Shown piece after piece: positions 16,245 through 19,811 of a stretch of 64,000 nucleotides of DNA. The notes under the pieces were generated by a model. The model searched no databases, was not told where the DNA came from, and was given only the letters and a program-made list of their open reading frames with translations. Numbering within the stretch: the first letter of the stretch is position 1; each line of letters begins with the position of its first letter. The stretch is taken from positions 62,001 to 126,000 of the forward strand of contig JAAXUF010000003.1 of NCBI GenBank assembly GCA_013336165.1, written 5' to 3'. The position numbers were made by a program, and so were the translations under genes. Source of the DNA: Coriobacteriia bacterium. GTDB taxonomy: Bacteria > Actinomycetota > Coriobacteriia > Anaerosomatales > JAAXUF01.

Positions 16245-18071
16245 CTACTCCACCGTCACAGACTTGGCGAGGTTGCGGGGCTGGTCAACGTTGCAGCCCC
16301 TATGCTTGGCGATGCGGTACGCGAGCAGCTGCAACGGCACGGTCGCAGGAATCGCCGAGAGTGCCTCGATCACCGGCGGTATGTACAGCACGCACTCGGC
16401 GTAGTTCCGAATGTGCTCGTCACCTTCGGTCGCAACCGCAATGACGTGGGCGCCGCGAGCGCGAACCTCCTGGATGTTGCTCATGACCTTGTCGTACGTG
16501 CGCCCCTTGGTGGCCACCACGACGACGGGAAGCTCATCGGTTATGAGCGCGATCGGACCGTGCTTCATCTCGCCGGCCGGATAGGCCTCGGCATGGATGT
16601 AGGAGATCTCCTTGAGTTTGAGCGCCCCCTCCATCGCCACAGGCACGCCCATCCCCCTGCCGAGGAAGAGCACACTCTTCGCATCGCCGAAGACCCCCGC
16701 ACAGTCATCCAGAGAACCTGTATCGGCAAGTATCGCTTCCACGATCTCGGGAATCGCCGAGAGGTCCGCAAACAGGGAGGCGACCTTCTCCGAGGTCAGC
16801 AGGCGCTTGGCCTGCGCGAGCTTGAGCGCCAGCACCGTGAGCGCGGCAATCTGCGCGGTGAAGGTCTTCGTCGCCGCGACGCCAATCTCGGGACCGGCGT
16901 GGGTGTAGATGACGCCGTCGGCCTCTCTCGTCACGCGCGACCCCACGACGTTCGTGATCGCGATGACCTTGCCGCCACGATCTTTCGCTTCGTGAATCGC
17001 CGCCAAGGTGTCTGCGGTCTCTCCCGACTGGGTGATCGCCACACACAGCGTCTTCTCGTCGACAATCGGGTCGCCATAGCGGAATTCGCTTGAGCACTGC
17101 ACCTCGACTGGCACCCGAACCCACAGCTCAATGAGATTCTTGGCAACGTAGCCTGCGTGCAGGGACGTGCCGCACGCTACCACGTACACGCGGTCGATCG
17201 ACTCGATCTGCTCCGGCGTCATCGCCAGCTCGGAAAGCTGGATGCTCCCATCCTCGCCCATACGCCCCCTGAGCGTCTCGCGTATGGCCTTGGGCTGCTC
17301 AAAGATCTCCTTGAGCATGAAATCTTCGAAGCCGTTCTTTTCGGCGGCGTCGAGGTCCCACTGCACATGCATGAGTTCGGGTTCCACCGCGTTGCCGGCC
17401 ATGTCTCGCACTGTAACGCCTTCGCTCGTCACAACAGCAATATCGCCGTCGTGTAGCGCGAGCACTTCGCGCGTGTACTCCAGCACGGCCGGGATGTCGC
17501 TTGCCACGATGTTCTCACCGTCGCCCAGACCGATGATGAGCGGCGAGTCCTTTCGGGCCGCGACGATGACGCCGGGCTGGCCGCGGTGAACCACCGCGAT
17601 TGCGTAGCTTCCCTCAAGGTCGGCCATCGCGCGGGCGACCGCCGAGACGAGATCTCCGCGGTAGTGGCTTTCGACCAAGTGCACGATGGTCTCGGTATCG
17701 GTCTCACTACGCAAGACGTGCCCGGCCGCTGCCAACTGTTCGCGCAACTCGGCGTAGTTCTCAATGATGCCGTTATGGACCACGGCGATGCTGCCGGTGC
17801 AATCCGTGTGTGGGTGAGCGTTCTCTTCCGATGGACGCCCGTGTGTCGCCCAACGCGTGTGGCCGATGCCCGTCCCGCCGAGGAGAGGAGCCGCATCAAG
17901 CGCATTCCTCAAGTTGACAAGCTTGCCGACACGCCGCGTGATCTTGAGCTTGTCGCCTTCCAGTATCGCAACTCCGGCCGAATCGTATCCACGGTATTCG
18001 AGCCTGGCCAGACCGCTCAGGAGTACGTCACTGGCCCGTCTGGGGCCAACATATCCGACTATTCCGCACAT
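16245..18071 (-). CDS. glmS: Glutamine-fructose-6-phosphate aminotransferase (isomerising)
   Basis: GlmS makes glucosamine-6-phosphate from fructose-6-phosphate and glutamine, the entry step of amino-sugar and peptidoglycan precursor synthesis. The 608-residue protein begins MCGIVGYVG, where Cys2 is the N-terminal nucleophile after removal of Met1. The glutaminase domain spans about 1-235. Two SIS isomerase domains follow, with VACGTSLHAGYVAKN near 300 and AITQSGETADTLAA near 345, and the C-terminus ends DQPRNLAKSVTVE. A ribosome site GGAGG lies 11 bases before the ATG. The upstream leader carries a glmS ribozyme at 18190-18347 that should reduce expression when glucosamine-6-phosphate is plentiful. 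Confidence 0.98.
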   Translation of the reverse strand: MCGIVGYVGPRRASDVLLSGLARLEYRGYDSAGVAILEGDKLKITRRVGKLVNLRNALDAAPLLGGTGIGHTRWATHGRPSEENAHPHTDCTGSIAVVHNGIIENYAELREQLAAAGHVLRSETDTETIVHLVESHYRGDLVSAVARAMADLEGSYAIAVVHRGQPGVIVAARKDSPLIIGLGDGENIVASDIPAVLEYTREVLALHDGDIAVVTSEGVTVRDMAGNAVEPELMHVQWDLDAAEKNGFEDFMLKEIFEQPKAIRETLRGRMGEDGSIQLSELAMTPEQIESIDRVYVVACGTSLHAGYVAKNLIELWVRVPVEVQCSSEFRYGDPIVDEKTLCVAITQSGETADTLAAIHEAKDRGGKVIAITNVVGSRVTREADGVIYTHAGPEIGVAATKTFTAQIAALTVLALKLAQAKRLLTSEKVASLFADLSAIPEIVEAILADTGSLDDCAGVFGDAKSVLFLGRGMGVPVAMEGALKLKEISYIHAEAYPAGEMKHGPIALITDELPVVVVATKGRTYDKVMSNIQEVRARGAHVIAVATEGDEHIRNYAECVLYIPPVIEALSAIPATVPLQLLAYRIAKHRGCNVDQPRNLAKSVTVE

Positions 18072-18189
18072 AGCTGGATGAACCTCCGGTTTGTGGGAGT
18101 GTGTGTTTTCGCGCGGCCGATATGCCGCAATGAGCCCGCAGCGCCCTGCATGCCGGAGGCCGGGGCATCTGGCCCCTGTGAGTTGTGGA

Positions 18190-18347
18190 GAAACCGGTGC
18201 GATGCCGTCTCTGTCTCCGCAGTCACCCGCGGGCTTTCTTCGACACCGTCACGACCCCGGTTGGGGCCGGAGGGCCATCCGCCGAATACTTCGATGAGCC
18301 CTCTCCTCGTCAACTGGCGAAAATTCGCACGAGCCAGTTCCGGCGCT
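18190..18347 (-). ncRNA. glmS ribozyme (self-cleaving riboswitch)
   Basis: The minus-strand leader 120 bases before glmS matches the glmS ribozyme core. It has GCGCC from 18346, AACTGGC paired with GCCAGT to form P2, the invariant GTTGACGAGG with the catalytic guanine at 18311, and then TCATCGAAGTATTCGGCGGATG with flanking GGGC and GCCC arms. A hairpin GCCCC-AACC-GGGGT follows, and its loop AACCGG is complementary to CCGGTT at 18197-18192, the expected P3.1-type pseudoknot. Cleavage is predicted between 18347 and 18346. The RNA binds glucosamine-6-phosphate, the product of GlmS, as a cofactor for cleavage. The remaining leader, 18072-18189, shows no further gene. Confidence 0.93.
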
Positions 18348-18442
18348 CTGCCATGCTGCTATCTCTCGGGTGGCGCTCCTCCCTGTCGGCACGAGTTCTC
18401 GTCACTGCAGTGTAGCAGCCCCAGAGCGCACAAAGCGATTAC

Positions 18443-18476: not shown

Positions 18477-19811
18477 CTAGCCGATCTCGGCGCGCACGAC
18501 TTGAGCGATATCCTCGGCGAGTTCACGTGCCGTCGCCTCATCCGCAGCCTCGATCATGACCCTCACAAGCGGCTCGGTCCCCGACGCCCGCACAAGAACC
18601 CTGCCCGTGTCGCCAAGCGCATCTTCTGCCTTCAGAATCGCCTCGGCGATCCTCACATTAGCCGAGAAGCCGCCCTTGTCTCCCACCCGCACATTGACGA
18701 GTGTTTGCGGATAGCGGCGCATGACCTGCTTGAGTTCTGAGAGCGGTTTGCCGGTCACGTGAAGCACGGATGCGAGCTTGAGAGCCGTGACCAATCCGTC
18801 GCCGGTCGTATTGTGCTCAAGGAAGATGACGTGGCCGGATTGCTCACCGCCCAGCGTGGCACCTGAGTCTCTCATCTGCTCAAGGACGTAACGATCGCCG
18901 ACAGCGGTCTTGATGACGCGAATGCCGCGTTCCCGCATGGCGATCTCGAACCCGAGGTTGCACATGACGGTCGAAACCACCGCGTCCAACGACAGGCGGC
19001 CGCCCTCGCGCAGATGCGCGGCACAGATTGCCATGATCATGTCGCCGTCGACTTCCGCACCGGTCTCGTCGATCGCAAGCATCCTGTCGGCGTCGCCGTC
19101 GTGTGCGATGCCGAGATCGGCTCCCTCACGCACAACAAGCTCCGCCAGCGGGGCCAGATGGGTGGAGCCGCACCCGACGTTGATGTCGAATCCGTCGGAC
19201 TCGCAATTGAGGGCGATCACCGTGGCGCCGAGACGGCGCAAGGCCTCCGGTGTGATGCCCGACGATGCGCCGTGCCCGCAATCAACTGCGATGACCAGCC
19301 CCACAAGATCGCCCTCAACCGTGGCGATGCTGTGAGCGATGTAGCGTTCAACCGCGTCCTCGACTCGGAGAACCCGTCCAACCGCCGAGCCCGTCGGATG
19401 TGCCCAGTCACGCTCAGCGACACAGAAGGCCTCGATCTCGTCCTCGACCGCATCGGCGAGCTTGAAACCCTGGCGGTCGAAGAACTTGATGCCGTTGAAC
19501 TCGGGCGGATTGTGCGATGCGGAGATGACCACACCGCCGTCGGCGCCCAGCTCACGGACCAGCAACGCGACCGCAGGAGTGGGAACAACGCCGGCGACAA
19601 GCGCATCCGAACCCGCCGAGCAGATCCCCGCTACGAGCGCCGCTTCCAGCATGTCGCCGGAAAGCCGGGTGTCTCGGCCGACCACGATGCGACCGCGGGC
19701 GGATCCGGCCAAGAACCGGCCTGCCGCTTCTCCCAGTTTGAGCGCGAGTTCCGGAGACAGCTCCGAGTTCGCTATTCCGCGGACGCCGTCCGTGCCGAAG
19801 AGTCGGGCCAT
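18477..19811 (-). CDS. glmM: Phosphoglucosamine mutase
   Basis: GlmM converts glucosamine-6-phosphate to glucosamine-1-phosphate on the path to UDP-GlcNAc. The 444-residue protein has the full alpha-D-phosphohexomutase layout. It opens with LFGTDGVRGIAN; the phosphoserine loop ISASHNP has Ser99, the metal loop DGDADRM is near 241, the sugar-specificity loop GGEQSGHVIF is near 325, and the phosphate loop RASGTEPLVRVM is near 410. The start ATG at 19811 follows GGGAGG. It stands directly upstream of the glmS leader. The neighbours therefore encode the two consecutive steps, with separate control because the ribozyme lies between them. Confidence 0.97.
   Translation of the reverse strand: MARLFGTDGVRGIANSELSPELALKLGEAAGRFLAGSARGRIVVGRDTRLSGDMLEAALVAGICSAGSDALVAGVVPTPAVALLVRELGADGGVVISASHNPPEFNGIKFFDRQGFKLADAVEDEIEAFCVAERDWAHPTGSAVGRVLRVEDAVERYIAHSIATVEGDLVGLVIAVDCGHGASSGITPEALRRLGATVIALNCESDGFDINVGCGSTHLAPLAELVVREGADLGIAHDGDADRMLAIDETGAEVDGDMIMAICAAHLREGGRLSLDAVVSTVMCNLGFEIAMRERGIRVIKTAVGDRYVLEQMRDSGATLGGEQSGHVIFLEHNTTGDGLVTALKLASVLHVTGKPLSELKQVMRRYPQTLVNVRVGDKGGFSANVRIAEAILKAEDALGDTGRVLVRASGTEPLVRVMIEAADEATARELAEDIAQVVRAEIG

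Follow-up and report, generated by a model that had tools for sequence, protein, structure and literature searches.

A full-length glmS ribozyme in the glmS leader of a Coriobacteriia bacterium

The glmS ribozymes of Bacillus subtilis, B. anthracis and Thermoanaerobacter tengcongensis (Rfam family RF00234) share a cleavage site, a catalytic core, a double pseudoknot, a P3.1 pseudoknot and a P4 helix with GNRA-type tetraloop, are placed before glmS, and occur in company with an RNase J gene. All of these features recur in the element described here, which lies in a 64,000-nucleotide stretch of a Coriobacteriia genome (the window). It differs from the three in its GC-rich helices, its Coriobacteriia host, the presence of glmM upstream and small differences in internal loop IL4. 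The glmS ribozymes of Fusobacteriota and Chloroflexi belong to the same RNA family and are likewise found before glmS, with the scored loci reaching 72–89 bits compared to 106 for the window element.

The RF00234 covariance model matches the minus strand of the window from 18358 to 18191 over its full length (model positions 1–167), with a score of 106.4 bits (E 6.3e-24) against a family gathering score of 37 bits. This score ranks fifth among the 48 ribozymes of the order. No second copy was found in the genome, the next-best RF00234 match being at noise level (11.7 bits). The ribozyme is located on the glmS strand, 119 nt upstream of the glmS ATG, and glmM ends 118 nt upstream of it on the same strand. 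Score, core and cleavage site, helices and position in the glmS 5' leader all agree with the family, confirming a full-length glmS ribozyme and a further case of this established class. A preliminary description, based on the sequence, had proposed a complete glmS ribozyme directly before glmS in an actinobacterium and suggested comparison with the family threshold. These points are borne out, including the bounds and the host (Coriobacteriia, Actinomycetota), while the strand, which it did not state, is minus. The motifs it listed are all present, as AGCGCC, AACTGGC/GCCAGTT, GTTGACGAGG and TCGAAGTATTCGGCGGATG.

Table 1 Features of the glmS locus and of ribozyme loci in relatives. Coordinates refer to the window unless a locus (L) is named.
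Feature	Position	Strand	Basis or remark
glmS ribozyme, complete RF00234 match	18191..18358	-	covariance model
Predicted cleavage site, A-1 (18347) / G1 (18346)	18346..18347	-	RF00234 alignment; AGCGCC the same in all 41 aligned order members
Catalytic core GACGAGG with active guanine 18305	18305..18311	-	PMC11602151 mapping; invariant in 41 sequences
P1	18339-18333 with 18318-18312	-	structure; both sides changed in 4/7 pairs, the other 3 invariant
P2.2	18345-18342 (CGCC) with 18283-18280 (GGCG)	-	invariant, 100% paired
P2.1	C18309-G18292 and G18308-C18293	-	B. subtilis C38-G55 and G39-C54; invariant
P2 (GAGGG/CCCTC)	18303-18299 with 18274-18270	-	both sides changed in 4/5 pairs, 100% paired
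P3 hairpin, loop enters P3.1	18252..18269	-	structure, pairs changed on both sides
P3.1 pseudoknot	18262-18258 with 18196-18192	-	4/5 pairs changed on both sides
P4, internal loop IL4, P4a with GUGA tetraloop (18226-18223)	18201..18247	-	P4 6/7, P4a 5/7 pairs changed on both sides
glmS, glutamine-fructose-6-phosphate aminotransferase, 608 aa	16245..18071	-	SIS and glutamine amidotransferase domains
Likely Shine-Dalgarno GGAGG of glmS	18083..18087	-	sequence, 11 nt before ATG at 18071
glmM, phosphoglucosamine mutase, upstream gene	18477..19811	-	four PGM_PMM domains
nagB ribozyme L288	5082-5231 (G753:C18:24581-24730)		then acyltransferase-like ORF and glmM
nagB ribozyme L298	404-556		then acyltransferase-like ORF and glmM
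nagB ribozyme L299	234-387
nagB ribozyme L301	231-384
nagB ribozyme L302	2842-2995	-
nagB ribozyme L303	2846-2997	-
nagB ribozyme L294	617-772	-
f41 locus L242	137-379 and 494-1825
f41 locus L240	174-406
f41 locus L241	230-472

The core of the B. subtilis ribozyme is numbered from G36, with P2.1 formed by C38-G55 and G39-C54 and with a covarying G48-C72 pair in P2; G42 is the active-site guanine, and replacing it (G42A) disrupts the site (PMC11602151). The window GACGAGG maps to G36–G42, the two P2.1 pairs fall on the positions given in Table 1, and G48-C72 corresponds to G18299-C18274. Hence, G42 is 18305, the last G of the motif, and G36 is 18311, so that the active guanine previously expected at 18311 is misplaced. 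AGCGCC, GACGAGG, AUCGA and UCGGCGG are invariant in an alignment of 41 order members.

Covariation was assessed on these 41 ribozymes using a structure that includes P2.1, P2.2 and P3.1. Paired cells amount to 94.4%, compared to 30–44% when partners are slid. Changes on both sides affect 26 pairs (shuffled mean 16) and 195 cells (shuffled mean 60, with none of 500 shuffles as high). Because the 41 ribozymes are relatives of one another and the fold was taken from the window copy, these counts are not to be read as probabilities. P2.1 and P2.2 show no variation and thus provide no covariation evidence either way. The pseudoknot proposed from loop AACCGG (18262-18257) and CCGGTT (18197-18192) corresponds to the known P3.1, whereas AACTGGC/GCCAGTT, previously labelled P2, is P1 by standard naming. 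In IL4 (18208-18240) the window copy has AAGAAAG and GACAGAGA, against ACAAAG and GACAAAG in most relatives; these differences could tune activity.

The GlmS protein shows a full-length match to solved GlmS structures. A consensus scan of the locus for a sigma-70-like promoter found none, and the promoter and terminator scan gave nothing useful. The same genome, which is 99.5% complete, encodes RNase J (585.7 bits). It contains no match to nagB and a single 20-bit match to nagA, below the cut-off. GlmS therefore looks like the main source of glucosamine-6-phosphate (GlcN6P) in this host, and a feedback brake on its synthesis makes sense.

Sequence, structure with covariation, gene context and the RNase J gene are established here; for ligand, cleavage and degradation we infer from the known class. 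The predicted fold of the transcript comprises P1, a double pseudoknot of P2, P2.1 and P2.2, the P3 hairpin with its P3.1 pseudoknot, and P4. By analogy, GlcN6P, the GlmS product, would bind the core and serve as acid/base cofactor, leading to self-cleavage between A18347 and G18346. The downstream fragment, carrying a 5'-hydroxyl, would then be degraded by RNase J, and this mRNA decay would lower GlmS levels. The location of the ribozyme before glmS in an actinobacterium supports the earlier suggestion that GlcN6P feedback control is its natural function, as judged from the known class. We consider it very probable that the element is an authentic glmS ribozyme-riboswitch, with GlcN6P-triggered self-cleavage lowering GlmS, and that within the order it has mostly been inherited, with repeated losses.

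The ribozyme is present in 48 of 61 sampled genomes of the order, which is probably Anaerosomatales. Across the class it occurs in 65 of 398 genomes, which comprise the order and one other family (f17); a further family, f18, yields a single sub-threshold RF00234 match of 26 bits. In the phylum it was found in 75 of 396 genomes, across at least 10 further families. Outside the phylum it turned up in two records each of Chloroflexi and Fusobacteriota, in four of Firmicutes and in the control Deinobacterium (Deinococcota). The notion of an isolated occurrence outside the main range is not supported. Our literature search, which did not extend to earlier surveys of the class, found no report linking Coriobacteri- or Rubrobacter with a glmS ribozyme.

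Six order genomes encode orthologous GlmS (71–76% identity) without a detectable ribozyme. Degenerate remnants in the ribozyme-minus relatives were considered and rejected, since a search relaxed to E 10 showed no sign of RF00234 there. In one of the six (G025, locus L178), glmS starts 117 nt after the apparent end of glmM, compared to 405 nt in the window, as if the ribozyme had been cleanly deleted. Three other order genomes (G042, G054 and G055; L181, L182 and L183) lack the ribozyme and encode a divergent GlmS (50–52% identity) that groups away from the order GlmS, an apparent replacement of glmS.

As the six genomes with orthologous GlmS show the ribozyme to be dispensable, the window copy might have kept its fold while being inactive or decaying, and its unusual IL4 could be read in the same way. 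This is very unlikely given the intact core, the fifth-best score of 48 in the order and the pairing of every named helix save one P4a end pair; moreover, some relatives likewise depart from the common IL4, with ACAGAG. A different proposal has the leader doubling as a conventional switch, in which the 3' strand of P3.1 (CCGGUUU) pairs with the Shine-Dalgarno region (AAACCGGAGG). The window does contain a 7-nt complementary run, matched in length by 3 of 100 shuffles, but across 39 order members the mean longest run is 5.3 compared to 5.2 in shuffled sequences. With complementarity not conserved, such a switch was rejected and we regard it as extremely improbable.

Recent acquisition of glmS together with its ribozyme from a Firmicute also has to be weighed against inheritance, since Firmicutes are the best-known carriers of the class and the GlmS of two families of the same phylum (f45 and f47) does group with Firmicutes. 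A GlmS tree of 128 rows, and a second, smaller tree for AU tests, were built by quick searches under a simple model. In the former, the order GlmS forms one clade (SH-aLRT 100) within a Coriobacteriia clade (95), separate from Firmicutes and Fusobacteriota GlmS (99), and the ribozyme-less class members group with Eggerthellaceae and Collinsella. The smaller tree does not recover the Coriobacteriia clade as its best arrangement, yet that clade is not rejected (AU p 0.39); a grouping of the order with Firmicutes/Fusobacteria, when enforced, is rejected (AU p 0.002). Recent transfer from Firmicutes is thereby rejected for the GlmS coding sequence; the tree traces the protein and not the RNA, and transfer of the leader alone would leave it unaltered. 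Considering also how common the ribozyme is in the order, recent acquisition is highly improbable. Of the two origins put forward in the preliminary description, ancient retention is thus favoured, and recent gene transfer is not supported. The position of GlmS among Coriobacteriia and the rejected Firmicutes/Fusobacteria grouping mean that, for the order, inheritance with repeated loss fits the sequences better than recent gene transfer. Accounting for ribozyme presence over the whole GlmS tree takes 13 or more changes of state, so that gains, losses or leader transfers may each have occurred deeper in the phylum.

In family f17 the ribozyme precedes nagB in seven genomes (G552, G647, G691, G698, G727, G737 and G753), with RF00234 scores of 62–72 bits. 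G753 carries ribozymes at both glmS and nagB, while the other six have a separate glmS at which none was detected (about 190 nt of leader being covered in G691). Complete NagB proteins encoded beside the ribozyme score 379–385 bits against the nagB model, compared to 280–286 bits in four f17 genomes with the ribozyme at glmS only, in two of which nagA adjoins. It is conceivable, if rather unlikely, that the ribozyme moved from glmS to nagB in f17, where GlcN6P would control a synthetic NagB acting as ammonia-dependent GlcN6P synthase, with the window arrangement being ancestral. The ribozyme-linked NagB may instead be catabolic, given that nagA is present in all 11 f17 genomes searched. ZMP/ZTP riboswitches (51–52 bits) were observed near glmS in two f17 genomes (L306 3693-3772; L311 1027-1106, minus strand).

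At three loci of family f41 (Actinomycetota) the ribozyme lies 1.5–1.7 kb before glmS, leaving room for a gene between them. In L242 the intervening gene is glnA, encoding glutamine synthetase, giving the order ribozyme-glnA-glmS. Glutamine synthetase supplies the amino donor of GlmS.

In view of its places before nagB and glnA in relatives, the ribozyme seems able to change targets. The genomes sampled here offer a ready-made series for asking under what circumstances, and for what reason, bacteria give up ribozyme control. GlcN6P-sensing self-cleavage would be a regular trait of this Coriobacteriia order, with clear losses, rather than a peculiarity of Firmicutes.
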